From Gemmatimonadaceae bacterium (GTDB lineage Bacteria > Gemmatimonadota > Gemmatimonadetes > Gemmatimonadales > Gemmatimonadaceae): DNA of 64,000 nucleotides. Numbering within the stretch: position 1 is the stretch's first letter; each line of letters begins with the position of its first letter. The notes under the pieces were generated by a model. It was not told where the DNA came from, ran no database searches, and saw nothing but the letters and a program-made list of their open reading frames with translations. Shown here in pieces: positions 5,201-42,255 of the stretch. The stretch spans positions 1 to 64,000 of the forward strand of contig JADZDM010000017.1 in the NCBI GenBank assembly GCA_020851035.1. Direction: 5' to 3'. The position numbers and the translations under genes were made by a program.

Positions 5201-7078
5201 CGTGAAGGCGTACCCCGACGCCGGCGTGGCCTGCACCGTGACGCTGCGACCACAGACACCGCTGGCCGAGCCGCTCGTGATCACCGTCGTGCCCCCGGTG
5301 GGCGGGTCGAGCACCAGCGTGCAGAGGGGCTGTGCGAAGTTCGCCGTCAGCGCCTGCGATGGCGTGGCGATGTTGACCACCCGCGTCGCACTGGTCGATC
5401 CGTCGGACCAGTTCACGAAGGTGTACGGCGCCGTCGGCGTCGCGGTGGCCGTGGCGGTGCGCCCGCAGTCGCCGGTCAGCGTGCCGTCGGTGAGCGTGGC
5501 CGTGCCGCCGTCCGCCGGTGACGCTGCCAGCGTGAGCGTGCACTGTTGCACGAACGTCGCGGTGAGCGACAGGCTCGACGACACGACGAACGTGTACGGC
5601 GTGACGGTGCTGCCGTCACTCCAGCCCGCGAAGCGGAACCCGCTCGCGGCCGCGGCCTCCACCGTCACGCTGCGCCCGCACGGCCCACTCGGCGTGCCCG
5701 CGGTGAGCGTGGCGCTCCCGCCGATGCCGGCGCTCACGCTGACGTTGCAGAGCGGCACCGAGGCGAAGGTGGCGACGATGGTGCGATCGGAAGTGAGCGT
5801 GAACGTCCACGGATTGGACGTGGAGACCGGGCTGCCCCCTTCGGTGAATGCGCTGAAGGAATAGGTCGGATCCGGCGTGGCCTGCACGGTGATGCTGCGC
5901 CCGCAGGCACCGTTGGCCGCGCCGTCGGTGATCACGGCGTTGCCACCCGTGCCGGCGCCCAGCGTCAGCGTGCAGCCGGGCAGCGTGAACTCCGCCGTCA
6001 GCAACTGCGCCGGCGACGTCACGAGCACGGCGCGCGTGGCGCTGGTGGAGCCGTCGGACCAGCGCGTGAACAGATACCCTCCCGTGGGCGACGCGCTGGC
6101 GGTGACGGTGCGACCGCAGTCGCCGGTCGCGTCACCCGCGACCAGCGAGGCCGAGCCCGCCCCGACCGGGCTCACGTCGAGGGTCAGCGTGCACTGCTCG
6201 GTGAACGACGGCGTCAGCGTGAGTGCCGGCGCCGTGAGCGCCAGCGTGTATGTGGCCGAACGGCTCCCGTCGCTCCACCCGGAAAACCGGTAACCGCCGT
6301 CCGGCGTGGCCACCACGGTCAGGCTGCGCCCGCAGTCACCCGTCAGCGTCCCGTCGGTGAGCGACGCACTGCCGCCGACGGCGGTGCCGATGGTGAGGGT
6401 GCACTGCGCCACCGCGAAGGTGGCGGTCCAGGTGTCCGAAGTGGTGAGCGTGAACGAGTACGGATTGTCGGTCGAGACCGGACCGCCACCCACTGTCCAG
6501 GCCGCGAAATCGTGGCCGACCGCCGGCGATGCCGCGATCGTCACGGTGCGCCCGCAGGCTCCGGTCTCGCCACCGCCGATCACCGCCGCCGAACCACCCG
6601 TGCCGGAGCTCACGGCCACCGTACAGACCGGTTCGAATGCCGCGGTCACCGCTTGCGGCCCGTCCAGCGCGCTCAGGCTGCAGGTGGGGGCGGTGCCGGC
6701 GGCGGCGCAGGCGCCCGACCAGCCGGTGAAGATGGAGCCTGGCGCCGCAGTGGCCGTCAGCGCCGCGACGGAATCGCGCTCCCACGTGTCCGAGCAGGTG
6801 CCGGTGGTCAACCCGGCAGCGATGTCACAACTGATCGCGGCCGTGCTGGCGCTCGCGGCGGGTGCGGCGACGTTGCCCGCCCCCGCGCCGCTGCCCTGGA
6901 CCGAAACCGTGTAGGTCTGCGCCGCGAGCACACCCGCGCCAAGCACGCTGGCAGCGGCCAGCGCAGCCAACCGGCTGCACCCCTGCCTGGCGCGCACCAG
7001 CATGCGGACCAGCCTGGGGCTGATCAGCGCCGGGCACCCGTGGGCGACGCGGCGGAACGTGCGGGAGGGGCGGAACAT
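2234..7078 (-). CDS. Giant secreted Cys-paired repeat protein with C-terminal dockerin-like motif
   Basis: 1614 residues. A second Met at 7003 sits directly before the hydrophobic signal segment ending LAAQ and is an alternative start. Residues about 55-160 form a bacterial-repeat module (IFTGWSGAC). Then follow eighteen copies of a roughly 72-residue module, each with a CxLxL strand, a CGR(S/T)(V/I) motif and an FxxWSDG or FTEG turn. This is InlB B-repeat-like, with paired Cys. A Cys-rich module (FIGWRGVC) follows. Near the C-terminus the segment LLDQTGNGDGVFNLGDLL fits one calcium-binding repeat of a dockerin: N, D, N and D fall at loop positions 3, 5, 9 and 12, while position 1 is Thr. Probably an exported adhesin or matrix protein held at the surface through that tail. 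The lipoprotein gene follows 4 bp downstream. Confidence 0.85.
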   Translation of the reverse strand: MFRPSRTFRRVAHGCPALISPRLVRMLVRARQGCSRLAALAAASVLGAGVLAAQTYTVSVQGSGAGAGNVAAPAASASTAAISCDIAAGLTTGTCSDTWERDSVAALTATAAPGSIFTGWSGACAAAGTAPTCSLSALDGPQAVTAAFEPVCTVAVSSGTGGSAAVIGGGETGACGRTVTIAASPAVGHDFAAWTVGGGPVSTDNPYSFTLTTSDTWTATFAVAQCTLTIGTAVGGSASLTDGTLTGDCGRSLTVVATPDGGYRFSGWSDGSRSATYTLALTAPALTLTPSFTEQCTLTLDVSPVGAGSASLVAGDATGDCGRTVTASASPTGGYLFTRWSDGSTSATRAVLVTSPAQLLTAEFTLPGCTLTLGAGTGGNAVITDGAANGACGRSITVQATPDPTYSFSAFTEGGSPVSTSNPWTFTLTSDRTIVATFASVPLCNVSVSAGIGGSATLTAGTPSGPCGRSVTVEAAAASGFRFAGWSDGSTVTPYTFVVSSSLSLTATFVQQCTLTLAASPADGGTATLTDGTLTGDCGRTATATATPTAPYTFVNWSDGSTSATRVVNIATPSQALTANFAQPLCTLVLDPPTGGTTVITSGSASGVCGRSVTVQATPASGYAFTRWSDGSTVTPYTLVLSAPTLTLGATFTPQCALALIAAPVAGGTVTLTDGSAVGDCGRTVTALAAPATGYVFRTWSDGVTTASRSVVVTVPSQSLTATFEQPLCTLTLTSGAGGSAAITSGTATGVCGRSVTIQATPDPTFSFNAFTEGSAPVSTSNPWTFTLTTDRTIAAAFAAVPQCNLTIGAAVGGAATITTGSALGPCGRSVTVQATPSTGYRFGSWSDGTTVTPYVLTMSSSFTITPAFVQQCTLVLAASPSAGGTATLAPGSLTGDCGRTATATATPTAPYLFTNWSDGATTATRAVTISTPSQTLTANFAQPLCTLVLSAGAGGTATITSGAANGVCGRSVTVQATPNTGFRFASWSDGTTVSPYTVVLTAPTLTLTASFTAQCTLTLAATPAAGGTVSLSSGSATGDCGRTVTALATPASGYEFRTWSDGVTTASRTVAVTVAAQTLTATFAQPQCTLTLSAGTGGTVRITGGSATGICGRNITMLATPNATYTFGAFTDGTTNVSTLNPFTLSLTTNRTIVATFVAVPQCALVLGTATGGTATLTSGTLAGACGRSVTVQATAGTGYRFARWSDSTTTTPYTFTLTKTTLTLLPVFVQQCAFSVAATPTAGGTAAITTGGAAGDCGRTVTVVATPASGYRFTSWSDGNTEATRTTTVTTEARSLTATFALIPQCALTLGTGTGGTVALTAGTLAGACGRAVTLQATPASGFRFKAWSDSTSTNPYTLTLTATTLTLTPEFAAQCTLVLTAAPVEGGSATLTSGTLTGDCGRSVTALARPNTGYAFTGWSEASAAASYTLTVTQSNQPLSALFAPTAAVRVVVSGAAGRVARVTGGTPVCALVTGTTETACTVVLAATELLVAEPEPTTGFIGWRGVCSGRGTCTPGEGDGREVKALFLPVRSIAADVAALDLLTGTGLSLADRELLDQTGNGDGVFNLGDLLAHLDRTKQVLTPAISSRILQATTPLSQPTTAGAPTRRP
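3240..6300 (-). repeat. Higher-order tandem repeat, 1,080-bp period (five 216-bp modules)
   Basis: Within the giant repeat gene, corresponding motifs recur at a spacing of exactly 1,080 bp. The PCGRSV codons lie near 4591 and 5671; the GTGGCGGTGC segment of the DCGRTA module at 4371 and 5451; the VCGRSV module at 4151 and 5231; and the DPTF/NATY module near 3721, 4801 and 5881. The unit is five modules of 72 codons. Nearly three units are visible, so the gene grew by duplicating blocks of five modules and not only single ones. Register slips by a few bases toward the 3' end. Confidence 0.8.
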
Positions 7079-29271: not shown

Positions 29272-29393
29272 GTCAGCACGCCGCCTTGAACTATCCGTCA
29301 CCGAACGCCTTCGAGGCCGAGTACGCCCTCACCCTTTCAGCCGGTCAAAGCTCAGTCCGCTGCTCGCTCATCGCCCACTCCGCGCCCAAAGTC

Positions 29394-29615
29394 TCAGGTC
29401 AACTGGGATGCCGTCGGCGCTATCCGACTGCAAGACTTGTGCAGAAACTCCCCTAGTGTTGAGCCGACGCCGGGCGCGATGAGCAGCGGAACGCGCTCAG
29501 TGGAAAGCACGAGAGTGTGACGAGAGATCTGAAGTACGGTGCCAATTGCCCGCCCTGACTGCTTGGACTCCACCCACGTCACCCGCACGCGTGGTACTCC
29601 TGCCACGCAGACCAT
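29394..29615 (-). CDS. Small PilZ-like protein or fragment
   Basis: 73 residues from the ATG at 29615; AGGAGG lies 12 bases upstream. The segment RVRVTWVESKQSGRAIGTVLQISRHTLVLSTE has the shape of a PilZ beta-barrel core, with ISRHTLVL where PilZ has (N/D)xSxxG. The N-terminal RxxxR motif needed for c-di-GMP binding is not seen, and the length is short, so this may be a truncated copy. Same direction as the subtilase operon, 62 bp after it. Confidence 0.4.
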   Translation of the reverse strand: MVCVAGVPRVRVTWVESKQSGRAIGTVLQISRHTLVLSTERVPLLIAPGVGSTLGEFLHKSCSRIAPTASQLT

Positions 29616-29677
29616 GAACGACGGCTGGACCTCCTGCCGTCGCGCTCGCGAGCAGGCGGGGTGAGACGGGTGCGTCG

Positions 29678-29980
29678 CTAGTGCTGCGAACGTCTCGCCG
29701 GCGAGACGGCAGCGTAGTCGATTCCCGTCCGCTGAGCTAGCAACTTTGCTGCCGCTTCGGAGTTTCCTTGGATGTTGGCGACGAAGATTCGCGCGAGACC
29801 CGGATCGGCGTCATCTGGGAAGACGATGTCGATTTTCGAGTCTTGAATGTGACCCTGCTGCTTCAGTTCGTCCAGCATCTGCTGCAGCCGTTCCAGCAGA
29901 AGCATCTGCGACTTTCTGGATTCGATGCTCGATGCGAATCGCACCGTGATCGGAATCCAAGCGTTTCGACGCTTCGTCAC
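29678..29980 (-). CDS. Small protein, possibly a stand-alone subtilase inhibitor
   Basis: 100 residues from a GTG at 29980; the frame is open upstream into the subtilase gene. It has an Arg/Lys-rich N-terminus, an amphipathic helix (LLLERLQQMLDELKQQG), a strand-turn-strand (SKIDIVFPDD, ARIFVANIQ), a second helix (SEAAAKLLAQRTG) and a final IDYAAVSPARR. This helix-plus-terminal-strand layout parallels the peptidase's own N-terminal segment (TRELLEQLGEDPTVDFAFVAPPRF), an I9-type propeptide. I infer a cognate inhibitor or chaperone. The gene follows the subtilase by 62 bp. No family recognised. Confidence 0.6.
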   Translation of the reverse strand: MTKRRNAWIPITVRFASSIESRKSQMLLLERLQQMLDELKQQGHIQDSKIDIVFPDDADPGLARIFVANIQGNSEAAAKLLAQRTGIDYAAVSPARRSQH

Positions 29981-30042
29981 GACTTCTTCTGGTGATGTCC
30001 CATGTCTCTCTATCCTGCTTCCGATTTCGTGAGATCTCAGTG

Positions 30043-31257
30043 CTAGCGGAGTGTCGCTTCGGCGTCGATGATGCCTGCCCCGAACTCTTCGCAGAACTGT
30101 GTCTGCCCCAAACAGTACCGTGTCTTGAGACGATTTCGAACTTGCGATGGCACCAGCTCCGGCTCCTTGGCCAGAAGCAGCGCCACCACCCCTGTTACAA
30201 AAGGGGCCGCCATCGAGGTCCCGTCCCAAGTATCATAATTCACCTGTGCCGCCAGTTTCGCTCGGTACGATGGGACAGTCGACCAGATTTCCACCCCAGG
30301 CGCACAGAGCGCAATATGTGGTCCAGTGTTGCTGAATTGACCGCGGCGAAGATTCTGGTCCACCGCTCCGACGGCTATAACTCCCTCTATGGCAGCAGGA
30401 TACGAAGTCTCGTTGCCCTCCTCGTACTCGTTGCCCATCGCAGCAACCACGACCGTGGTGTCGAGAGAGCGAGCAATTATCTGCTCCTCGACGGGATCGT
30501 GCGGCCCGCCTAGGCTCAGGTTCACAATATCGCACGTCTCGAGCGCCTCTCGGAGCGTGCGGTAGTAGAGCGCTGGGGAATATGGGTCCAGCGCCTGATA
30601 CACCCTGAGCGTCGGCTTGCAGACGCCCTTCATCCCCAACGGCCCTGCGGGCACGGCCGCCACAATACCCGTCACATGCGTTCCGTGTCCAGACGTGTCC
30701 TTGGACCGTGCTGACCGGGGGACATAGGTGGCCTTGCTCCCAGCAAGGTCTGGATGGGAACTGTCTAAGCCAGAGTCAATGATGCCAACGACGACCTCAC
30801 AGACGTCACTGAATCCGGCCTGCTGCCGCGCTTTGTCGAGATTGATCGCCGAGACGCCCCATCTGCTTGGCTGAGCCCCAGTCCCCTTCGTGGACTGTGC
30901 ACCGCTTCCGCGGTGCGCGGTCAGGACGAACCGGGGCGGGGCGACGAAGGCAAAGTCGACAGTCGGATCCTCTCCGAGCTGCTCCAGTAACTCTCGCGTT
31001 TCCGCATCGGTCGTCACGTCGATGACATAAGCGTCCGGCAGTGGGAGGGTCGGCTCGGCAGTCTGTCGAGCGCGCGTCGATGGACGCGCCTGCTGTGCCT
31101 TCTCCACCGCCGCCCGACCGCGGCCTGCTGCCGGAAACACCGCGTCCGCCTTCCCGGATTCAATCAGGCGATTCAGCGTGCCGTCCTGGGTGTCAATAGC
31201 CTTTGCCACGGTCTTCCGGACTGCGTTCAATTTGACTGCCACGACGTGCCACGCCAT
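30043..31257 (-). CDS. S8 (subtilisin-type) serine peptidase without signal peptide
   Basis: 404 residues. The catalytic triad is complete: Asp161 (GIIDSGLD), His191 (GHGTHVTG) and Ser348 (DGTSMAAP), with the oxyanion Asn276 (AAMGNEY). Residues about 75-112 look like an I9-type propeptide. The first 75 residues are basic and Ala-rich with no hydrophobic signal, so the enzyme appears cytosolic, unusual for a subtilase. It sits in a row with an SGNH hydrolase (65 bp upstream) and the small inhibitor-like protein. Role unknown; a regulated intracellular protease is inferred. Confidence 0.9.
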   Translation of the reverse strand: MAWHVVAVKLNAVRKTVAKAIDTQDGTLNRLIESGKADAVFPAAGRGRAAVEKAQQARPSTRARQTAEPTLPLPDAYVIDVTTDAETRELLEQLGEDPTVDFAFVAPPRFVLTAHRGSGAQSTKGTGAQPSRWGVSAINLDKARQQAGFSDVCEVVVGIIDSGLDSSHPDLAGSKATYVPRSARSKDTSGHGTHVTGIVAAVPAGPLGMKGVCKPTLRVYQALDPYSPALYYRTLREALETCDIVNLSLGGPHDPVEEQIIARSLDTTVVVAAMGNEYEEGNETSYPAAIEGVIAVGAVDQNLRRGQFSNTGPHIALCAPGVEIWSTVPSYRAKLAAQVNYDTWDGTSMAAPFVTGVVALLLAKEPELVPSQVRNRLKTRYCLGQTQFCEEFGAGIIDAEATLR

Positions 31258-31322
31258 TGCGGATTCTCTCGAGAAGAGGAGTGTGAAACGGCACCGGTCT
31301 CAACTTACGAACGATACCCCGC

Positions 31323-32321
31323 CTACAGACTTGCAACGCGCGCTGCGAGCTTTGCCGTGACCAGTTTGAACCCGGCCTTCGTTGGATGAAGCTCGTTGGC
31401 CCAGTGCTCGCGGTATCCGCCATCATTGCGCAGCTCAGTCCGAAGGTCGACGAAGTGCACATGGTTGAAAGCGGGAAGCGAGACCAGTGTCTCCATCATG
31501 TTGTTGAAGCGATCGATGAGGGTCGCGGTGACTTTCGTGTTCAGCGACTGATCCACGTGACCCTTGCTCACAAATCCAGGGCGCAGCCACGGCCCGGGCA
31601 GCAGCGACCACCCTCCCATGAACCCGCGTCCATCGGGAACCGGGTGCGCGTAGCCGTGAACGACGATGGGCAGGGGGACGTCTAGATATCCCTTGGTGAT
31701 GGTCGTCAGACCGCTGATCATGTGCGCATACGCATCACGCATGCGGACATCGATCACACCGCGCACGATGTCGTCATTGGTAGCGGGCAGAGGTGATGCG
31801 GCATGGTTGAGCAGGAGAGAGAACTGGTCCCCCGCGATGTCGTTTCCGCCGCCAGACAGCAGAATGGCCCTGGGGACCTCGTTGGCTCGTAGCAGCTTCT
31901 CCAATCTGCGAGCGAAAGCTTCAGCCTGTCCGCCGGAGTACGCCATGTCTTCGATCCGGTCACCCCGGTGCGCAACCGACTCGACGTTGTACCCGTAGTC
32001 GTCCTCGAGCATGCTCAGGACGTCGTGCATGGGATAGTCGAACCATGAATCGCCCTCGGCCATCAGCGTGCCGGTTCGAGCGGACAGGCTCAACATTGAA
32101 CGTGTGCGCTCAGGAATCGCCAGTCTGCCGGCCTGTATCGCTGCCACGTTTCGAGTCCGTGTCAGCCTCGCAGCCTTCTGGCGACGACGCGCAACCCGGG
32201 CGCGCACCAGTAGTACCTCTGTACCGGCTTGCTCGCCGCCCTGAATGGTGGAGGCAAGCAAGGCATCTGCCTGGTTCTTGCGCTTGCGGCCACTCTTCGA
32301 GCGTTTCTTAGGACCTTTCAT
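31323..32321 (-). CDS. Cytosolic SGNH/GDSL-type hydrolase
   Basis: 332 residues. Very basic N-terminus (KGPKKRSKSGRKRK) and no signal peptide. Block I is AEGDSWFDYP with Ser92; block III is LLSGGGNDIAG (157-161); the C-terminal block V is ANELHPTKAGF with His312, where the usual Asp three residues earlier is Asn309 (Glu310 is adjacent). The Gly block II is less clear (AHRGDRIEDM). SGNH enzymes are esterases, lipases or deacylases; the substrate is unknown. First gene of the operon with the subtilase and small protein. The basic tail could bind nucleic acid. Confidence 0.85.
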   Translation of the reverse strand: MKGPKKRSKSGRKRKNQADALLASTIQGGEQAGTEVLLVRARVARRRQKAARLTRTRNVAAIQAGRLAIPERTRSMLSLSARTGTLMAEGDSWFDYPMHDVLSMLEDDYGYNVESVAHRGDRIEDMAYSGGQAEAFARRLEKLLRANEVPRAILLSGGGNDIAGDQFSLLLNHAASPLPATNDDIVRGVIDVRMRDAYAHMISGLTTITKGYLDVPLPIVVHGYAHPVPDGRGFMGGWSLLPGPWLRPGFVSKGHVDQSLNTKVTATLIDRFNNMMETLVSLPAFNHVHFVDLRTELRNDGGYREHWANELHPTKAGFKLVTAKLAARVASL

Positions 32322-32940
32322 CGTGCCCTCACGTGGGAACCTGACCGAACCGGTCGGGCCTGCCCGCTTGTGTCTCCGAGGTGTCGCCTGACCTTAAAGT
32401 CGCGATGCAGCGCCGCGGGCGGCGGCCGAGCCTTTCGACACCCGTCGCAAGAACAGGCCTTGGCTGCCGGTACCGTGAATCAGTCACTAATTGCTCCATC
32501 TACGATCTGCGCTGGGCCCGATCCGCACAAGGCGTCCCTAGTGCTCGCGGTCCGGCGCATGGCCCCGCCAGCGCTGTGCTTGCGGAACCAACGCGCGCAC
32601 CAGAACTGGCTAACGACCCGGATATCGGCCGGCTCGCAACGGGATTCTTCCTGGGAAGGCGTCTCCTCGCCGATCAGCAGGTCGCGTGCCTGCGAAGGCG
32701 AGACGCTCACATCGGCGGGGCAGGGATTCTCCGCCGTGACGCGAGGAATGATCCAACGAGACGACCTCCCGACCGTTGAGGCCGCCGACGAAGCGAGCAT
32801 TCGGCTATCGGCAAGCAACATGGCGAACGGCTGGCAACCATCAGGTGGATCACACCGAACTCGCCCGTTGATAAGCCCGGTGCAGACAGCACCCCAAACT
32901 CCTACACCCGTGAGCAGGCAATCTACCGCAGCAATTGACG

Positions 32941-32964
32941 GGGCCGCCTCACGCGGCCCTTTTC
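32941..32964 (+). terminator. Intrinsic terminator (plus strand)
   Basis: GGGCCGC (32941-32947) pairs with GCGGCCC (32953-32959) around a 5-base loop and is followed by TTTT. It is a textbook rho-independent terminator with no recognised plus-strand gene before it, which suggests an undetected small RNA or a displaced transcript end. Confidence 0.65.
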
Positions 32965-33140
32965 CGAGCCGGACTCCGGCAGCCCGTAGCCCCCGGCACG
33001 GAGCAGCGCATGGCGATTGCGTGGCTCCAGACGCGCGAGCCGATGTGGCCGGGAGGAACCATCCTAGAGACCCGACACTCCATCCAACCGGAGGCGCTTG
33101 TACCACATCCAGACTATGCCGCGGACAAGCAGGCCCCTAC

Positions 33141-33160
33141 GCCAATTCCGCCACTGGCAC
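33141..33160 (-). pseudogene. tRNA-Leu 5'-end remnant
   Basis: The minus strand reads AGTGGCGGAATTGGC, the characteristic acceptor/D-arm start of bacterial tRNA-Leu. The rest of the tRNA (anticodon arm, T arm) is not recognisable downstream. It differs from the intact tRNA-Leu(GAG) at 39093-39174. Possibly a relic of another tRNA-linked insertion. Confidence 0.35.
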
Positions 33161-33510
33161 CCAGCACGGACGAGATTGTACCACGGCGACTCGCACAGCC
33201 GGGGTCAATCAAGCATCCTCGTGGGTGATCACAGAGCCCATGGTTGCTTGCCGGTTGCATGTCTCGACGACCCGAGCTTTCAACCGCTACTCCCTCTGAG
33301 AGACCTCTCAATCAACTACAGCTAGCGGTGTGCGGCTTACCCGAAGCTCTGTGAGGAAGCGGTCGCCGCCACCACCATCCTACGTCGATACATCAGTCCA
33401 CGCGGCCGTTGGGCAACACGACGCGCATAGAACAGCACGGCCTCTCTAAGTGTCGCTCTGGTTCCAGAAATCTCCCGTCCCCTTCCACGCGAGCGCGATC
33501 AACACCTTGC

Positions 33511-35088
33511 TCAACGGCGTGAAAAGAACTGGTCGAGGCGCATTGAAACTCCGCCGATGAAACGCAGATCATCCGGGCCGCTACCGTTGTTGAGGTCCAA
33601 TCCGAGATAGACGTACTGCAGAAAGATCCTCGCCTCGATATAGTGGCGCCACTTCTCGCCACGCACGAACGCACTCTGGGGCGGGACACCCGTGGCGAGG
33701 CAGGTAGCCGGATCCCGGAGGCAGACAGTGGCGGCTGAAGATGCGCTGGTATCCCTTGCAGTGGCGGTCTCGAAGTTCTGGAATTGCCCATAGGAATAAT
33801 CAACGTACGCCGCGGGAGCCCAGCCATGCTGCGCAAGGTCGCCAGCCTTTCGATCCTTCTCGAAGAGCGTGAGACGCCCGCCAACCGCCCACGAACCGAA
33901 GAGATCATCCTCGAGATTCCACACTCGCGCAGACCGCTGCCCATCCGAGACACTCTGAAAGATGGCGCGACCGACCGGGCCGAAACCCCAGTGGAACCTC
34001 GTCTTGTTGACGTTGAATCCACCGAAGTTGAAGGTGCTCGTCGCTCCAAATATGACCTGCGCTGCCTTCTTGGACTGGATCTCATCGCCGGCCGTCGTAC
34101 TCGAGGAAGCCCCTGTCACGGCGATCGTGGTAAGGCGAAGTGATACGGCTGGATCCAGATAGAAGCGATCGTACCCGCGATCTTCCTGAGCGATCAAGGA
34201 TGCTCTGGCGTTAGTGTAATCGACCCTCTTCGATGCGTCCCCTTCCGCGCGCTGGCGCTTGATGAGCGTGTCGCATGCGAACCAACATGACCACCCGAAC
34301 ACGCGAGGCTGTGATTCAAACGCGAGGTAGACCGCTGCCTGAGCAAATTGTGAGCTCTGCACGGACGCCGTCTTGCCGTCCGCGCTCTTCACCACACTGG
34401 CCTGCCCGTTCGAGAAGATCGAACCGCCCACGATACGGACACGCAACGCCTCGAGCACCTCGTTGTCACTGCCCGCGAGCACTGCGAGCGCCGGCGTCGT
34501 TGCTTCGATCGCGGTGGATGCTACGAGACCAGCGAGTTCCGTTGTTGCAACCGCTAGCGCCTCTCCAGCACGTACCACGCTGTCTGCGAGGATCCGAACG
34601 TCGTCATCACTCGCCGCCGATTGGGCAGCAATGGCGCGTAGCACCAACGCACTTGCACTCACAATCGCTTGCTTCCGAGCGAGTGCACCGACAACGCTTG
34701 CGTTGGCCGTGACACGCGATGCGTCGGAAGCTGTCTCCGCCGCCGCGAGAGTGGCTTGGACGACGCCTGTTTCGGCGAGCACATCTAGGCCCACTATTGA
34801 AGTGGCGACTGCACCTGAATGGCCAACTATTATCGCGATGGCTACGCCGGGCGCCTGAAGCTGTTGCCGGAGCAGTTCCACCTTAGCCCTTACGGCCAGC
34901 GCTCGCGTCAAGAGCGCGTCAGCCGTTCGCGCTGCGTCGGCTGACCTAGCCTTCGCCGAGCTGAGTGCTACAGCACGCGCGGCCGCGACCTGCGCCTCCG
35001 CGGTTGGGGGGACACCTTGCCCCAAGAGGCCGTAAACTGGAATGAGTGCTGCAATCACCGACACAACGGTCCTCGAGTACGCTCGCAT
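33511..35088 (-). CDS. Exported protein with Ala-rich helical region and barrel-like C-terminus
   Basis: 525 residues from the ATG at 35088, chosen for its signal peptide (MRAYSRTVVSVIAALIPVYGLLG); the frame is open further upstream. Residues about 28-210 are Ala-rich heptad-like helices (EAQVAAARAVALSSAKARSA and similar), likely a coiled coil. Residues about 225-525 alternate strands and turns (FNFGGFNVNKTRFHWGFG, AAYVDYSYGQFQNFE, YIEARIFLQYVYLGLDL) and end in SMRLDQFFSRR, like an outer-membrane barrel. An outer-membrane anchored stalk or adhesin is possible. Family not recognised. Confidence 0.75.
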   Translation of the reverse strand: MRAYSRTVVSVIAALIPVYGLLGQGVPPTAEAQVAAARAVALSSAKARSADAARTADALLTRALAVRAKVELLRQQLQAPGVAIAIIVGHSGAVATSIVGLDVLAETGVVQATLAAAETASDASRVTANASVVGALARKQAIVSASALVLRAIAAQSAASDDDVRILADSVVRAGEALAVATTELAGLVASTAIEATTPALAVLAGSDNEVLEALRVRIVGGSIFSNGQASVVKSADGKTASVQSSQFAQAAVYLAFESQPRVFGWSCWFACDTLIKRQRAEGDASKRVDYTNARASLIAQEDRGYDRFYLDPAVSLRLTTIAVTGASSSTTAGDEIQSKKAAQVIFGATSTFNFGGFNVNKTRFHWGFGPVGRAIFQSVSDGQRSARVWNLEDDLFGSWAVGGRLTLFEKDRKAGDLAQHGWAPAAYVDYSYGQFQNFETATARDTSASSAATVCLRDPATCLATGVPPQSAFVRGEKWRHYIEARIFLQYVYLGLDLNNGSGPDDLRFIGGVSMRLDQFFSRR

Positions 35089-35239
35089 GGCAGCAACTCG
35101 CCTAGAATTGTGAGAGAAGCAACTGACAGACGGAGCACCTACAATGCGAATGTTCGGTGCTTGGGGATACGGGCCGACAGCATGGGTGGTGCACGCGAAG
35201 CACTCTAGATGGGCCCGCGCGCGTGACGACTCTCGGTCG

Positions 35240-35605
35240 TCACGTGGTTGACCGTTTCGTCTTACCGAAGTAGCGATGCAACGCTTGCTTCGGAGCACGC
35301 TTTCTGAGCGACTTCGCTGCGCTCGCAAATTTGTCCGGACGAACCACGTCGCCAAGAAGTCGTGAGCGCGCGCCGCGAAGTTGTTTGGGTGATGCCCAAG
35401 CATCTCCAAATGCGCTTTTCGAAATCCGGATGATGGCCGTAGCGTATACCGCCAACTCGACCGTGGACAGCTCACTCTCCTCAGAGGTCGCAGAGCCTAG
35501 AAGCGCGGTCCAGTTCGTCAACAACCATTCTACCTGTGCGAGATTCGTGGGCCCGTTGGTTGCAGCCGCCAGCACTTCGATGGCTCGTGTCTGAAGCGTG
35601 TCCAT
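35240..35605 (-). CDS. Hypothetical small helical protein
   Basis: 121 residues, start supported by GGAG 7 bases upstream. Mostly helical: MDTLQTRAIEVLAAATNG, VEWLLTNWTALLG, LSTVELAVYATAIIRISKSAFGD, then a basic C-terminus (KSLRKRAPKQALHRYFGKTKR). No signal peptide, so probably cytosolic. It starts 15 bp after the stop of the surface lipoprotein gene and is likely co-transcribed. No function can be assigned. Confidence 0.65.
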   Translation of the reverse strand: MDTLQTRAIEVLAAATNGPTNLAQVEWLLTNWTALLGSATSEESELSTVELAVYATAIIRISKSAFGDAWASPKQLRGARSRLLGDVVRPDKFASAAKSLRKRAPKQALHRYFGKTKRSTT

Positions 35606-35620
35606 GATGAGCTCCGTGCG

Positions 35621-36844
35621 TTAGGGAACGACTGCCACGCCAAGCCCCGCGAACCATGCGTCTATCTGGTTGCGGAACTGGCCGTACGGATTGGGGCCAC
35701 GAAATGCTCGTCCGTACAGCATCACCTGACGCGATCCGAGCCTAAGTCGGTTTGGCAACACATAGCCGATCACAACGTTGGTCTGAAGCCGTTTCTCAGC
35801 AGCATTCAATCCATTGTGATACGGGAACACCGTGCGATTGGCAATGGTAATGGCGCCGCGCCAATGCCCTCCAACGCGATCAGACCCTGGGTCAAGCGCG
35901 ATTCCAGTGGCCTGACGCACATCGAACGTGACAGCGGCTTCGGTCGTTGGAGGGATAAGTGGAACACGGCCGGGATCTGCCTCGCCAGGGAAGAGCTGAT
36001 AGTGGCCGCCCTTCCCGATTCGCTCGACCTCGACCGTCGCCTCGGCGAGCCAGTGAGGAATCCGATAATACCGAAGCGATGTCCAGCCTCGAACGGGCCA
36101 GTACGAAACGTTCACTCGATCGAATGGAAACGGACCCCGGTCCGACGAGGAACTCGAGATCACATATTCGTCGCCAAGATGTGTACTGATGTGAGACTTC
36201 GAGCCACCGAGCCGAAGCTCGAGATTCTTTGTGAGCGCACGCCGTAGAGCCAGGTCGATTCCAAATGTGTAGTCGGTATTGAGAATCGGCTCGTTGTGAG
36301 TGAATGGATCCCAGAAGAGATGGAATGCGATGGGGACTGAGAGTTGCATGGTGACGCGCCCGTCCGTTCGATCCGGCGGCGGCGTCCCCCTTTCGTCTTT
36401 GGGAACGTACGGCTGATCAGGTGACGCGAATCCGCTCCACGTACGATTGGACAGCGCAAGGATGGGGTTCACATAGCCAACATCAACGAGCAGGTACCGA
36501 CGATCGTCACCGATGGCTGAGGCCTGTCGGTCGCGCTTGGAGGAAGCCAGCTCATATCCCCGCCCCTGTACCAACGCGACCCGCGTGGCCGGCTCTTGCA
36601 CGTCGGAGATCCGAACAGGACGAGTGCCGGTATCCTGGAACCAAACGCTGTGCGCGCAGCCACTCACGCCAGTTGCAATGACGAGAAGGTAGGCTGCGGC
36701 CTGCAGGGTCCGATACGTAGCCCACCTTGACCTTTCCCTTACCGCACCGACCGCTCTCTGCCATTCTCCCGGCTCCCGCCTCGACGTGACTGCCCGAGCG
36801 CTTTCGACGCACCGACTGGTTCTCCGCAAGAACACTGCGACCAT
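35621..36844 (-). CDS. Predicted outer-membrane lipoprotein, DUF1207-like
   Basis: 407 residues. GAGG lies 9 bases before the ATG at 36844. The lipobox (GVSGC, Cys63) is unusually far in, so a later non-ATG start is possible. The mature part has DYTFGIDLALRRAL, LRLGGSKSHISTHLGDEYV, VSYWPVRGWTSLRYYRIPHWLAEATVEV and a long run of strands to the C-terminus. The SHLGDEY segment and barrel-like periodicity recall DUF1207 proteins. Function unknown. Confidence 0.7.
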   Translation of the reverse strand: MVAVFLRRTSRCVESARAVTSRREPGEWQRAVGAVRERSRWATYRTLQAAAYLLVIATGVSGCAHSVWFQDTGTRPVRISDVQEPATRVALVQGRGYELASSKRDRQASAIGDDRRYLLVDVGYVNPILALSNRTWSGFASPDQPYVPKDERGTPPPDRTDGRVTMQLSVPIAFHLFWDPFTHNEPILNTDYTFGIDLALRRALTKNLELRLGGSKSHISTHLGDEYVISSSSSDRGPFPFDRVNVSYWPVRGWTSLRYYRIPHWLAEATVEVERIGKGGHYQLFPGEADPGRVPLIPPTTEAAVTFDVRQATGIALDPGSDRVGGHWRGAITIANRTVFPYHNGLNAAEKRLQTNVVIGYVLPNRLRLGSRQVMLYGRAFRGPNPYGQFRNQIDAWFAGLGVAVVP

Positions 36845-37236
36845 AAGAATGCCTCACGCGTAGATGACAGATACCTTGACGGCCAAGCGCCGATACTTTC
36901 GCGAGATGGCCGGAACGCCATGCTTCTCTCGTCGGCGGGCGGCGATGACATGTAGTGCGCTCGTGGCGTCCATGCGTGACCATGACGGCGAGGACCGGCA
37001 GCCACGCGGAGCGCAGGGAGTTACGTGGCGTTCGTCGCGTGTTCCTCCGTCCTCACGTCCGGGTCGCTTTGACTCGAGACAGCCCCAAAGACGATCCGAA
37101 CGTGGCTCAGAGGCGCGGCCGTGTCAATGATCGCCTAGAAGTCTTTGCGGGGTGCGTAGTGGAGTGACCTCGATCAGCTAGACAGAAGCGTGGATTGGGT
37201 TTGACCTTCGAGGGCGCGGCCTGCGGAGGCCTCATG
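36845..37236. other. Region without a recognisable gene
   Basis: Almost 400 bases with only short arginine-rich frames on both strands. It separates the lipoprotein gene from a helicase stub and probably contains the lipoprotein promoter. I see no repeat or RNA gene. Confidence 0.4.
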
Positions 37237-37374
37237 TCAATGGCCCACCCAAAGTCTCGCTTTCAGCTGCGCCTTTGCGGCCGCGCTGATATCTGCCGCG
37301 CGGATGCGGGTGAAGGAGCGGGTGAATTGCTGGTAGTCTTTGAGGACGGACGTGCGCAGGTCGAAAACGTTCAC
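37237..37374 (-). pseudogene. N-terminal stub of a superfamily-2 helicase
   Basis: A 45-codon frame from GTG at 37374 reads VNVFDLRTSVLKDYQQFTRS followed by FTRIRAADI and LKARLWVGH, then a stop. This is the conserved start of a large family of DEAD/DEAH-box helicases (NVFDLRxxxxxDYxxYxRSFxxIRDxxI), here broken off before LWPEPLIQLNP. No downstream helicase sequence was found. Too short to be functional, so a gene remnant. Confidence 0.55.
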
Positions 37375-37479
37375 GGCAATTCGCAGGGAAGGTTCATCAC
37401 GTCGGCTCGGACACGTGTCACGGATGGGATCTAAGGAAAGCAGACATTAGCAGCATACGTACCTGGTAGCTCCACCGTC

Positions 37480-38580
37480 TCAGCCCTTGCGAGAGGGGCG
37501 CTTAGCGCCTGCAGCGACAGATCGATTCTTCGTCGCTGGACTCTTCTTGGTCGCAGCCTTCCCAGCGGTCTTTCTCAGGGCGGAACGCTTCACCGGAGAC
37601 ATCGGCGAAGCGACATCGCTGACATCCTTGCTGCTGGCCGGAGCAACGACGTTCGAGATGCCGTACGGTACGTGAACAGATCGAACGTATCGCGCGGCAG
37701 ATTGTATGTGGCCGACTTGATCATCGAAGTAGATGTGCGGCTTCAAAACTCCGAGGACAGGCCCTTTTTCGACGCCGCCGAGGAACACCGCGTCGTTGAC
37801 CATGACCCCCCAGCTCTTCAGCGTTTGCACCGCGCGTTCATGGGATGGCGCGTTCCGGGCCGTGACGATGGAGACGCGCAGGCGGATCTGGTACGAAGCG
37901 TCGTTGCGGCGTCGTTCTTCCTCGAGACGCTGAATTCTGGAGATTCTCACAAGGAACTCCTTCAGTGGGCCGGGCTGATGGTGCGTGCCAGCTTGCGCCT
38001 GCTCGTAGCCGTGAAAAGCTGTGATGTCTCCTGCCTGATATACGCGCTCCGACTCGTCGCTCGCCAGGACACCGTCGAAGTCGAATGCGATCCGGAGCCC
38101 GGTGTCTGCGGGGTCATCGACTGCCTCTGACGCCATCACATGTCCGGCAGGATGCCCCTTTTCGACCGCCTCGCGCACGCCCGCGGCGTCGCCACTGAGG
38201 AACAAGGCGATGTGCAGCGGAGCGATGAACTCGTACGGGGTTCGACCCTGTGTGAAGACGGCGCGCGTGACGTCGAGTTGGTAGTGCTGCATCGATTGCA
38301 TCACGCGAAGCCCCGTATCGGGATCGTTGCGCGAGAGCAGGATGACTTCGACGAGCGGCGACGCTGGCGTTCCCACGGCAAGGTCATTGAGCGACAGCAA
38401 GCGCCTGACGAAGGAGAAGGCTGGCCCCCTCGGGAGCGGGTCTCGCAAGTGGGCCTCCTGATACTTGCGATACTCCTCCTCGCCCTGCTCCTTGAACACC
38501 GCGTCGGACTCCGAGAGGTCGAACACCGCGCTGGACGCGACCCCAACGACCAAGCGGGTTGAGAGATCGTAGGGGGGCAA
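37480..38580 (-). CDS. Cytosolic 5'-nucleotidase (PF06189-type) with basic C-terminal tail
   Basis: 366 residues from a TTG at 38580. Residues 1-305 follow the bacterial/eukaryotic cN-I family: LVVGVASSAVFDL, LSRNDPDTGLRVMQSMQHY, RAVFTQGRTPYEFIAPLHIALFLS, the HAD-like AFDFDGVLASDESERVY, IVTARNAPSHERAVQTLKSWGV and FLGGVEKGPVL with IYFDDQ. It should dephosphorylate nucleoside monophosphates in the cytosol. The last 45 residues are a Lys/Ala-rich tail (RKTAGKAATKKSPATKNRSV) like histone H1, not part of the family core. It is the last gene before the tRNA-Gly boundary of the presumed island. Confidence 0.88.
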   Translation of the reverse strand: MPPYDLSTRLVVGVASSAVFDLSESDAVFKEQGEEEYRKYQEAHLRDPLPRGPAFSFVRRLLSLNDLAVGTPASPLVEVILLSRNDPDTGLRVMQSMQHYQLDVTRAVFTQGRTPYEFIAPLHIALFLSGDAAGVREAVEKGHPAGHVMASEAVDDPADTGLRIAFDFDGVLASDESERVYQAGDITAFHGYEQAQAGTHHQPGPLKEFLVRISRIQRLEEERRRNDASYQIRLRVSIVTARNAPSHERAVQTLKSWGVMVNDAVFLGGVEKGPVLGVLKPHIYFDDQVGHIQSAARYVRSVHVPYGISNVVAPASSKDVSDVASPMSPVKRSALRKTAGKAATKKSPATKNRSVAAGAKRPSRKG

Positions 38581-38868
38581 TTCGCACCGGATGATGGGGG
38601 AGGCTGCTCAGGCCGGCGACGACAGCCGACCCCTCACTCGGAAATTAGTCCCGATGCTACGATATGCTCAGCGGCATTCGCGCGGCACTTTCCACGGTCA
38701 GAATACCAGCTGCCGCTGACAGTCGGCTGATCAGTCGAGGCTCCGAGGCCGGAGGAATGGCCGGACCGTGGCTGACTGTATTGGCTGACTAGCAAAACCG
38801 AGGAGAAAAGAAAAAGCACTGTCAAACATACTGACAGCGCTAAGTTCTTATGCTGTAATGTGTTATCC
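38581..38868. other. AT-richer non-coding region at the island boundary
   Basis: About 290 bases, clearly less GC-rich than its surroundings, between the nucleotidase and tRNA-Gly. It holds CTGTCA/TGACAG inverted arms at 38819-38837 and a repeated GGCTGACT near 38770 and 38783. It could contain integration-related or tRNA 3'-processing/termination signals. A 63-codon frame at 38634-38825 looks spurious. Confidence 0.45.
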
Positions 38869-38870
38869 AG

Positions 38871-38943
38871 AGCGGGAGACGGGACTCGAACCCGCGACCT
38901 TCAGCTTGGGAAGCTGACACTCTACCAACTGAGTTACTCCCGC
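38871..38943 (-). tRNA. tRNA-Gly (anticodon CCC)
   Basis: The cloverleaf folds with acceptor GCGGGAG/CTCCCGC, anticodon stem TCAGC/GCTGA with loop TTCCCAA, and T arm GCGGG-TTCGAGT-CCCGT. Last gene of the eight-tRNA cluster. Its 3' end forms the right-hand direct repeat of the presumed island. No CCA is encoded. Confidence 0.93.
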
Positions 38944-38980
38944 CGCACTCACCGCACCCGCACGTGCCAAAACCAACCAG

Positions 38981-39052
38981 AGCCACAGAAGGGGATTGAA
39001 CCCTTGACCGCTCGATTACGAATCGAGTGCTCTACCACTGAGCTACTGTGGC
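38981..39052 (-). tRNA. tRNA-Thr (anticodon CGT)
   Basis: Acceptor GCCACAG/CTGTGGC, anticodon stem CTCGA/TCGAG with loop TTCGTAA, and T arm AAGGG-TTCAATC-CCCTT. CCA is not encoded. Confidence 0.93.
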
Positions 39053-39092
39053 ATTACCCCCCCACCTGCCCTCCAACCACACGTACCGAGGA

Positions 39093-39174
39093 TGCCCTGA
39101 CGCGGACTCGAACCGCGACGCCTTGCGGCACCACCCCCTCAAGATGGCGTGTCTACCAATTTCACCACCAGGGC
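39093..39174 (-). tRNA. tRNA-Leu (anticodon GAG)
   Basis: 82 bases with a long variable arm (GTGCCGCAAGGCG). The anticodon loop TTGAGGG sits on stem CCATC/GGTGG, and the acceptor is GCCCTGG/TCAGGGC with A73, the leucine discriminator. Confidence 0.93.
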
Positions 39175-39237
39175 AAACATCCAACCTTGCCGTCCTTCCC
39201 GCGCCGACCCACGACGCCCTGATCCCAGAAAATGCAA

Positions 39238-39311
39238 CGGGGCCGACGGGGCTCGAACCCGCGACCTCCGCAGTGACAGTGCGGCACTCTAACCGACTGA
39301 GCTACGGCCCC
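39238..39311 (-). tRNA. tRNA-Asp (anticodon GTC)
   Basis: Acceptor GGGGCCG/CGGCCCC, anticodon stem CCGCA/TGCGG with loop CTGTCAC, T arm GCGGG-TTCGAGC-CCCGT, and G73 as expected for Asp. Confidence 0.93.
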
Positions 39312-39362
39312 AGTTGTGATCCTCCACCTGCACCCACACCCACGACTCCACCCACCGAAGGT

Positions 39363-39432
39363 AGCGCGTACGGGAGTCGAACCCGTCTCTGAACCTTGAA
39401 AGGGTCCCGTCCTAACCGATAGACGAACGCGC
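39363..39432 (-). tRNA. tRNA-Glu (anticodon TTC)
   Basis: Anticodon stem GGACC/GGTTC with loop CTTTCAA; T arm GACGGG-TTCGACT-CCCGT; acceptor GCGCGT paired with ACGCGC. At about 70 bases it is slightly short because of a compact D arm. Confidence 0.88.
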
Positions 39433-39511
39433 CGCAGGGCCGAAACGCCTCGACTCCACCACACCGTCGACCAACCACACGCACTCCCCACACCCACACC
39501 AACACCCGCAT

Positions 39512-39582
39512 AGCGCTAACGGGATTCGAACCCGTGTTCCAGCCTTGAGAGGGCCGTGTCCTAGTCCCCTAGACGATAGCGC
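39512..39582 (-). tRNA. tRNA-Glu (anticodon CTC)
   Basis: Anticodon stem CGGCC/GGCTG with loop CTCTCAA; T arm ACGGG-TTCGAAT-CCCGT; acceptor GCGCTA paired with TAGCGC. Adjacent to the TTC isoacceptor and similar in structure, so the pair probably arose by duplication. Confidence 0.88.
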
Positions 39583-39620
39583 CGTTCGTCGTCCACCCGC
39601 ACCCGCAACTCCCTCCCGCA

Positions 39621-39693
39621 CAGGCCCGGCAGGAATCGAACCTGCAACCCCCGGTTTTGGAGACCGGTGCTCTACCAATTGAGCTACGGACCT
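39621..39693 (-). tRNA. tRNA-Trp (anticodon CCA)
   Basis: Acceptor AGGTCCG/CGGGCCT with G73, anticodon stem CCGGT/ACCGG with loop CTCCAAA, T arm GCAGG-TTCGATT-CCTGC. Confidence 0.93.
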
Positions 39694-39747
39694 TCACCGC
39701 GTTCCCGTGCAGAGTATCGACCCGCCAACCCCGGCCGACCACCCCAG

Positions 39748-39821
39748 GGTGCCTGACGGGGATTGAACCCGCAACCCCCGGAACCACAATCCGGTGCTCT
39801 AACCAATTGAGCTACAGGCAC
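39748..39821 (-). tRNA. tRNA-His (anticodon GTG)
   Basis: Acceptor GTGCCTG/CAGGCAC with C73, anticodon stem CCGGA/TCCGG with loop TTGTGGT, T arm GCGGG-TTCAATC-CCCGT. The base before the gene is G, the extra G-1 needed for histidylation. First gene of the tRNA operon. Confidence 0.93.
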
Positions 39822-40607: not shown

Positions 40608-41456
40608 TCACAGCGCCGGACGCCGCCCCCGGACACGGTCCAGTACCACCCGCACCGTCGGCCACGCATTCCGCGCCGCCTTCGACGCCCCCTCCGCCGT
40701 GGGGTGGATCCCGTCCGGCTGGTTGAGGCCGCTCACCCCGGCCACCCCCTCCAGCAGGAACGGCATCAGCGTCGCCCCGGTCGCCTTCGCCACCGCGGGA
40801 TACACCGCCCGGAACGGCCCGGCATACCCGGCCCCGAGATTCGGCGGCGCCTCCATCTGCACCACCACCACCTCCGCCGCCGGCAGCCGCGACCGCACCT
40901 TCCCCACGATCGCCAGCAGGTTCTGCTGCAGCTGCGGCACCGACGTCCCCCGCAGCCCGTCGTTCGCCCCGGTCTCGATCACCACCACGTCCGCGGTGTC
41001 CTTCAGCAACCAGTCGGTGCGCCGCAGCGCTCCGGCCGAGGTCTCACCGCTCAGCCCGGCATTCTGCACCTGCACCCGGTAGCCGAGCGAGTCCGCGATG
41101 TGCCCCACCTGGCCGGGCCAGGCCTGTACGGCCGGGTCCGCCAGACCGAGACCGGCCGTCAGGCTGGTGCCGATGAACAGCACCCGCACCGGCCCCGTCT
41201 CGGCCACCCGCCCCATGTCCACCGAACTTCCCGGCGGCAACGGCGTTTCAGTGCCAGCACCGCCTGCACCAGCTACCGTTGACGTGTCGGGAGACGTGCC
41301 CCCCCGATCGGCAGATTGTGGCGCCGCGCCGCCGCCGCAACCATGCACCGACACCAGCAGCACGCCGAGCACCACGGCCCCGCGCAACCGGGCCGGACGG
41401 CCCCGCTTCGCACCACCCCGCGCGCCCCGATCCTCACCACCCCGCTGCTTCCGCAT
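40608..41456 (-). CDS. tesA: TesA-like SGNH esterase, predicted lipoprotein
   Basis: 282 residues from the ATG at 41456. A basic N-terminus, hydrophobic stretch and lipobox (VHGC, Cys40) are followed by a long Gly/Ser/Thr linker. The arylesterase/TesA domain has FIGTSLTAGLGL (GDSL block with GTSL), NAGLSGETSAG (block II), ETGANDGLRG (block III) and DGIHPTAEG (catalytic Asp/His). TesA hydrolyses acyl thioesters and lysophospholipids in the periplasm. Divergent from ybbA-ybbP, the same arrangement as in E. coli. Confidence 0.88.
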   Translation of the reverse strand: MRKQRGGEDRGARGGAKRGRPARLRGAVVLGVLLVSVHGCGGGAAPQSADRGGTSPDTSTVAGAGGAGTETPLPPGSSVDMGRVAETGPVRVLFIGTSLTAGLGLADPAVQAWPGQVGHIADSLGYRVQVQNAGLSGETSAGALRRTDWLLKDTADVVVIETGANDGLRGTSVPQLQQNLLAIVGKVRSRLPAAEVVVVQMEAPPNLGAGYAGPFRAVYPAVAKATGATLMPFLLEGVAGVSGLNQPDGIHPTAEGASKAARNAWPTVRVVLDRVRGRRPAL

Positions 41457-41514
41457 GTCTGACACCGGTTTGTCGTCATCCAGCCGCGCCGCGGCGCCCA
41501 GGGGCACGACGCCC

Positions 41515-42255
41515 ATGATCGCGGTCCGCTCCCTGACGAAGGAATATCGCAGCGGCGGCGACGCACTGGCGGTCCTCCGTAACGTCACCTTCGACATCGC
41601 CGCCGGCGAGACGGTCGCCATCGTCGGCCCCTCCGGCAGCGGCAAGACGACGCTCCTCGGCCTCCTCGCCGGTCTCGATACCCCGACCACCGGCTCCGTG
41701 CTCCTCGCCGGCGCCGACCTCGCCACGCTCGACGAGGACGCCCGCGCCCGCCTCCGCGGCGAACGGGTCGGCTTCGTCTTCCAGAGCTTCCAGCTCGTGC
41801 CCACCCTCACCGCCCTCGAGAACGTGCAGGTGCCGCTGGAACTGCGCGGGATCCGCGACAGCGAGCCGCGCGCCCGCGACCTGCTGGAACGGGTGGGCCT
41901 GGGGCATCGCATCCATCACTTCCCGACGCAGCTCTCGGGCGGCGAACAACAACGCGTCGCCATCGCCCGCGCCTTCGTCAATCGCCCGCGCGTGCTCTTC
42001 GCCGACGAACCCACCGGCAACCTGGACGGGAGCACCGGCGAGAAGATCGTCGCCCTCCTCGAGCAGCTCAATCGCGAGGATGGCACCACCATCATCCTCG
42101 TCACGCACGACCCGGTGCTGGCCTCGCGCCTGGGCCGCCGCATCCGCCTCGCCGACGGCATCGTGATCGAGGACACGGGTGCCCCGGCCACGACGCCCAC
42201 CCGCGCCGATCGCGCCGATTCCGACGAACCCGATGCGGTCGGGGCGATCGCGTGA
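41515..42255 (+). CDS. ybbA: ABC transporter ATP-binding protein (YbbA/LolD type)
   Basis: 246 residues from the ATG at 41515; an in-frame ATG at 41455 would add 20 residues and overlap the divergent gene. Walker A is GPSGSGKTT (38-46), followed by the Q-loop VFQSFQLVPTLTALENV, signature LSGGEQQRVAIARAF, Walker B VLFADEPTGNLD and H-loop VTHD. This is the LolD/MacB/YbbA group. It overlaps the permease gene by 4 bp. With TesA it may act in lipid or lipoprotein handling at the inner membrane. Confidence 0.92.
   Translation: MIAVRSLTKEYRSGGDALAVLRNVTFDIAAGETVAIVGPSGSGKTTLLGLLAGLDTPTTGSVLLAGADLATLDEDARARLRGERVGFVFQSFQLVPTLTALENVQVPLELRGIRDSEPRARDLLERVGLGHRIHHFPTQLSGGEQQRVAIARAFVNRPRVLFADEPTGNLDGSTGEKIVALLEQLNREDGTTIILVTHDPVLASRLGRRIRLADGIVIEDTGAPATTPTRADRADSDEPDAVGAIA

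Follow-up and report, generated by a model that had tools for sequence, protein, structure and literature searches.

A subtilase, a putative prodomain-like partner and an SGNH hydrolase encoded side by side in a presumed genomic island of a gemmatimonad

The window analysed here, a 64,000-nucleotide stretch of DNA from a Gemmatimonadaceae bacterium, is part of a contig in a draft genome of 4.97 Mb and 34 contigs. On its minus strand, genes for an SGNH hydrolase, a subtilase, and a small protein follow one another in this order, all co-directional and separated by 65 and 62 bp, in agreement with an earlier note on this DNA that had described three minus-strand genes about 60 bp apart. The features are as follows:

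31323..32321, minus strand: SGNH hydrolase of 332 aa, GDSW-type clade (Pfam Lipase_GDSL_2, E 7.5e-9, and residues invariant across 12 relatives)
32082..32321, minus strand: basic N-terminal extension of the SGNH protein, about residues 1-80 (charge composition; helix predicted at low confidence)
30043..31257, minus strand: subtilase of peptidase family S8, 404 aa (Pfam Peptidase_S8, E 1.5e-41; D161/H191/S348)
30922..31257, minus strand: N-terminal S8 prodomain, about residues 1-112, I9/fervidolysin-prodomain-like (sub-cut-off Pfam match and alignment to 3whi)
29678..29980, minus strand: I9-like (subtilase-prodomain-like) partner of 100 aa with a GTG start, a proposed trans inhibitor (structure model, S8-adjacent homologues, profile match)
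29272..39821, no strand: GC-poor stretch, the presumed island holding the trio (composition, ARAGORN tRNA genes, patchy occurrence; borders approximate)

The GTG start of the small protein lies at 29980; a longer mechanical reading frame reaching to 30229 was set aside, as it overlaps the S8 gene. Since a consensus scan for promoters and terminators gave none above chance level, it is from spacing and direction alone that we infer transcription of the three genes as one operon. A hydropathy scan (not SignalP) showed neither a signal peptide nor a membrane segment in any of the three proteins, the best N-terminal 15-residue mean hydropathy being at most 0.7.

Between 29 and 39 kb the GC content is 0.59-0.64 as compared with 0.65-0.72 in the flanks, and a group of eight tRNA genes identified by ARAGORN (38870-39821) is located at the right edge of this GC-poor stretch. 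Of the phylum's 395 sampled genomes, only 7 have the SGNH gene, and it is missing from two genomes of the same genus. Composition, tRNA genes, and patchy occurrence thus lend support to the island presumed in the earlier note. A phage origin of the trio was considered and rejected: the SGNH protein found no match in phage records and the window sequences found none in viral contigs, although the latter do contain four distant SGNH relatives. The same GC-poor stretch encodes a 5′-nucleotidase family protein (37480-38580, minus strand; PF06189) that strongly matches PDC-S08, a PADLOC phage-defence candidate model. Its remainder is occupied by two secreted or lipoprotein-like proteins of 654 and 407 aa (33511-36844, minus strand) that have no Pfam matches, the true start of the 654-aa protein probably being internal. 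Just beyond the tRNA cluster and less than 9 kb from the trio lies a gene for another GDSL hydrolase (40608-41912, minus strand), which is unrelated and of arylesterase/TesA type.

The subtilase matches Peptidase_S8 with 143 bits and carries the catalytic residues D161 (in DSG), H191 (in HGTH), and S348 (in GTSMAAP); triad and profile together place it in family S8, and its best solved relatives are subtilisins. The Pfam model Fervidolysin_NPro-like matches the prodomain weakly and below the cut-off (E 0.0086), and the alignment of the window S8 to pro-subtilisin E (3whi) reaches residue 91. With the triad located and no hydrophobic N-terminus in the hydropathy scan, the description of this protein as an S8 peptidase with an intact active site and without a signal peptide holds, and its sequence supports assignment as a cytosolic subtilase. 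The enzyme also resembles the IetS component of IetAS, the PADLOC model of which it matches at E 1.6e-8. However, the match covers part of the model only, no ATPase gene adjoins and no ATPase family match was found among the scanned neighbours; membership of IetAS was therefore rejected.

The small protein matches no Pfam family, and neither I9 nor prodomain models of Pfam match it even at an E-value of 10, so that the term I9-like is not a family assignment. An AlphaFold2 model built from the single sequence (mean pLDDT 67) predicts a beta-alpha-beta-beta-alpha-beta arrangement comprising strand 9-13, helix 22-41, strands 45-53 and 65-72, helix 74-85, and strand 92-94. This order of elements is common to subtilase prodomains and many ferredoxin-like proteins. 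Structure searches with the model, which is of low confidence, gave only generic ferredoxin-like matches; a subtilase prodomain was not among the matches listed by VIA-align, though it is not thereby excluded, and Foldseek placed site-one protease at rank 5 with a poor E-value.

According to the earlier note, the small protein parallels the propeptide of the neighbouring subtilase. For the two single sequences the likeness is weak (shuffle p 0.07), and the window protein by itself does not reach significance against prodomains, but the likeness is significant between the family profiles. Alignment of the small-protein profile to that of the prodomains of partner S8 enzymes by hhalign scored 18.6, whereas column shuffles averaged 9.5 with a maximum of 16.4 (0 of 200 reached the score), a reversed profile scored 12.6, and unrelated SGNH profiles scored 11-12. 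The aligned region maps to the last strand-helix-strand of the prodomain, the stretch that the earlier note had picked. Because the probability assigned to this match by hhalign itself is only 3-6%, the relation is probable rather than certain. Despite the missing Pfam I9 match, predicted topology, profile match, and the position next to S8 genes in other lineages argue that the small protein is probably I9-like, as had been proposed.

Direct homology searches with the small protein returned nothing convincing besides itself in the 395 gemmatimonad genomes, where matches at E 0.005-0.009 lay inside much longer frames, and no convincing relatives in plasmids; relatives were found solely via the neighbours of S8 relatives, and it is this approach from the protease that yielded the best evidence on the small protein. 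Deinococcus sp. QL22 and Sinorhizobium meliloti, whose S8 proteins share 36% and 33% identity with that of the window, both bear a gene for a small protein (84-87 aa) directly downstream of the S8 gene. The Sinorhizobium gene—also present in Sinorhizobium meliloti 1021—occurs in 69 plasmid records; in those inspected, it either adjoins the S8 gene without a gap or overlaps with it. In Methylobacterium nodulans, about 0.6-0.8 kb separate a homologue from an S8 gene that is truncated, inverted, and next to IS66 elements. Direct alignment relates the window protein to that of Methylobacterium (score 56, shuffles 24.5 +/- 4.5, 0 of 1000 reaching it) and to that of S. meliloti (score 44, p 0.005), while no similarity to the Deinococcus protein was detectable in this way (p 0.13); the Methylobacterium, S. 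meliloti, and Deinococcus proteins are clearly interrelated.

In Sinorhizobium and Deinococcus the pair stands without an adjoining SGNH gene, as would be expected if the subtilase and a trans inhibitor served ordinary regulated cytosolic proteolysis and the SGNH protein were an island passenger or a functionally independent neighbour. A precedent exists in Bacillus, where the intracellular subtilisin Isp1 has an inhibitor, IPI, of Ig-like fold (PMC3901451). We consider this explanation rather unlikely for the window: the three genes are close together and co-directional, and the SGNH clade is itself repeatedly fused to or found beside peptidases, S8 among them. On the Deinococcus plasmid (L060:1273-5416), genes for a phosphotransferase, a LanC-like protein, the S8 enzyme, and the I9-like small protein point in one direction, the S8 gene starting 10 bp after the LanC-like gene, and YcaO and TfuA genes are found near an SGNH-S8 gene of Rhizobium TH2. 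Such neighbours could indicate peptide maturation, with S8 processing a modified peptide and the small protein acting as substrate or chaperone rather than inhibitor. This seems improbable, given that the small proteins are prodomain-like in profile and predicted fold, that those of Deinococcus and Methylobacterium contain no cysteine, and that the window region showed no recognisable enzyme of peptide modification.

The SGNH protein matches Lipase_GDSL_2 above the cut-off (36.8 bits), which places it among SGNH/GDSL hydrolases. Block I reads GDSWFDYP (Ser92) and is followed by GGGND (Asn160) and NELHP (His312); among the 12 relatives, S92, N160, and H312 never vary and G120 hardly does, while the Asp usual at His-3 is replaced by Asn, with an invariant Glu beside it. 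The basic tail attributed to the protein was found as described: the first 80 residues contain 21 K+R vs 4 D+E (pI 9.9). The extension is predicted, at low confidence, to be mostly helical (helix 10-63); it might conceivably form a protease-sensitive gate. A low-confidence model of the protein (pLDDT 64, three sequences) comes nearest to a putative lipase and to the peptidoglycan O-acetyltransferase PatB from Neisseria gonorrhoeae, then to acetyl-xylan esterases. On these structural neighbours, the protein is possibly a hydrolase resembling carbohydrate O-acetyl esterases and perhaps acts on cell-wall acetyl groups.

Loci of the GDSW SGNH clade support a link of this clade to peptidases and conflict-type systems. 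Among the 25 loci inspected, the window included, a peptidase is fused to the SGNH domain or encoded within about two genes in 18, which is not an unbiased rate because some of the plasmid loci were picked for their annotation. The partner is an S8 peptidase in the window, L024, and L010, a trypsin in L006, L044, L046, L048, L049, L050-L052, and L054, a caspase in L011, L045, and L056, and a papain and/or an enzyme of the astacin/matrixin/reprolysin type in L003, L004, and L012, a papain also occurring beside L056. In L010, one polypeptide about 1650-1700 aa long unites SGNH, Amidase_3, M74, and S8 domains. At L045, a protein with Amidase_2, caspase, and SGNH domains is encoded next to genes of CHAT, MoxR-like, and STAND-like type (the last two named by reading). 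The SGNH gene of L046 adjoins an EAD1-trypsin gene and that of L054 a NucA-trypsin gene, and Amidase_3, M15, M74, EAD1, NucA, or CHAT are present at several loci of the clade. Only wall or glycan hydrolases accompany the SGNH gene in L008 and L055, and neither these nor a peptidase in L005, L007, L009, L025, and L053. In the plasmid match list, the match falls on an annotated gene in 26 records, and in 11 of these the annotation names a caspase, amidase, DUF882, S8, or trypsin. A small control comprised 26 genes called in the vicinity of other GDSL genes in the same genome; the 25 families listed, out of 33, included no endopeptidase. The count leaves out a set of gemmatimonad relatives that are more distant (L026-L029) and adjoin outer-membrane-like proteins. 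Two of the loci have features of their own: a deltaproteobacterial MAG has a broken SGNH relative, split in two and lacking its middle part (L005:7992-8706), and Pseudomonas aeruginosa plasmids bear a solitary member beside a LemA-family gene and without a protease (L007:5881-6855).

Some of these relatives suggest a role outside the producing cell. Among related SGNH genes there are fusions to peptidoglycan amidases and endopeptidases that lack evident signal peptides, and the SGNH-trypsin gene of L044 is located upstream of tail-tube, VgrG-like, and PAAR-like genes (named by reading; the tail tube was confirmed). The SGNH hydrolase and protease might accordingly form a lytic cocktail, stored in the cytoplasm and released onto other cells by lysis or an injection machine, from which the I9-like protein would shield the producer. 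The genome under study does contain a contractile tail-like cluster with sheath, tail tube, and other baseplate-like genes, but on another contig (L068, G000:C5:516000-535900), and no injection-machine gene lies beside the trio in the window. Furthermore, of 99 genomes from the phylum to which L044 belongs (that of G600), 25 contain tail-tube genes, and their co-occurrence with an SGNH gene in a genome therefore means little. Overall, the lytic cocktail strikes us as quite unlikely.

Conservation of the three genes across genomes, on which the earlier note had made its proposal depend, is only partial. One other gemmatimonad (G336, same family) carries S8, 171-aa, and SGNH genes (the last 48% identical) co-directionally within 3.4 kb (L024), yet its middle protein is a different one: examined as an I9-like candidate and rejected, it gave p 0.36 against the N-terminus of its own S8 and no Pfam match. 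The exact trio including the I9-like member was seen once, in the window, and is thus rare and not widely conserved. The S8/I9-like pair and the link between SGNH proteins and peptidases, the latter in several phyla, are found apart in other genomes. Since both recur separately, the window resembles a combination of two recurrent modules, and the trio looks like their meeting point, as does L024 with its different middle protein.

Protease-effector couples are known from bacterial conflict systems. For the peptidase-NucA systems, a proteolytic cascade deploying a nuclease has been proposed (Kaur et al. 2020, PMC7159879). As in 'System 3' of that study, cytosolic peptidases—S8, trypsin, or papain-like—are coupled to a hydrolytic effector within one operon or protein, and the SGNH relatives L054 and L046 directly adjoin NucA-trypsin and EAD1-trypsin, respectively. 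In contrast to 'System 3', the trio and its scanned neighbours include neither NucA nor a trypsin, the window contains no EAD1 or STAND gene, and the trio was not assigned to this system; PMC7159879 makes no mention of SGNH, GDSL, esterase, or lipase. Protease-activated pro-nucleases have been described at Hachiman/AVAST and canu loci (Tuck et al. 2025, PMC12799240). These pairs share with the window a protease gene beside an effector gene, and a gating segment on the SGNH protein is conceivable. However, the protease is a subtilase instead of a trypsin or caspase, the effector candidate is an SGNH protein and not an MBL nuclease, no sensor gene is present, and activation is only proposed here; esterase and lipase terms are absent from PMC12799240.

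Most likely, if still tentatively, the analysis points to a horizontally acquired, co-directional unit that works as an effector module gated by a protease, the inhibitor of which acts in trans. The subtilase would be made and retained in the cytoplasm as a zymogen restrained by its own N-terminal prodomain, with the separate I9-like protein docking in trans on the active site as a safety catch. A trigger such as infection or damage to membrane or wall would free the protease, which would then degrade the inhibitor and switch on the SGNH protein by trimming its basic tail or in another way. Acting on the envelope as the effector, the SGNH protein would thereupon damage it or halt growth. We infer for this module that the small protein inhibits the protease, that cleavage activates the effector, what the effector acts on, and that the unit serves in defence. 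At the loci inspected, SGNH genes do lie beside peptidases and parts of conflict systems. No sensor or known defence gene adjoins the trio in the window. Unlikely in our judgement is a more specific reading, namely protease-gated abortive infection, in which a subtilase held by a prodomain-like trans 'antitoxin' would activate the SGNH protein against the cell's own envelope, combined with GDSW SGNH proteins being an unrecognised recurrent effector of peptidase-based conflict systems of bacteria.

All three folds are already known; the combination is new. Fungal POIA1 and yeast IB2 are free-standing propeptide-like inhibitors of subtilases. Malaria SUB1-ProM is another (PMC6993865). As in these cases, the window encodes a separate protein resembling the protease's own propeptide; whereas they are eukaryotic, the gene is here bacterial and, in several lineages, directly beside that of the protease. 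With Isp1 and IPI, the window shares a cytosolic subtilase and, as proposed, a separate intracellular inhibitor. It differs from them in that the small protein is prodomain-like as opposed to Ig-like and the S8 enzyme has a large N-terminal prodomain. A free-standing prodomain-like partner of a cytosolic bacterial subtilase would differ from the known intracellular inhibitor IPI in its fold. The SGNH clade was not found described as a repeated companion of conflict-type peptidases in the literature searched, which comprised no preprints and few subscription papers. Joining trypsins, caspases, papains, metallopeptidases, and subtilases, often together with peptidoglycan hydrolases, it is a candidate class of non-nuclease effectors for protease-triggered immunity or self-lysis. 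Elsewhere in the window, a 1614-aa secreted-type protein (2234-7078, minus strand) consists of a repeat of about 70 residues (GxCGRxVTxxATPxxGYxFxxWSDG) in many copies.
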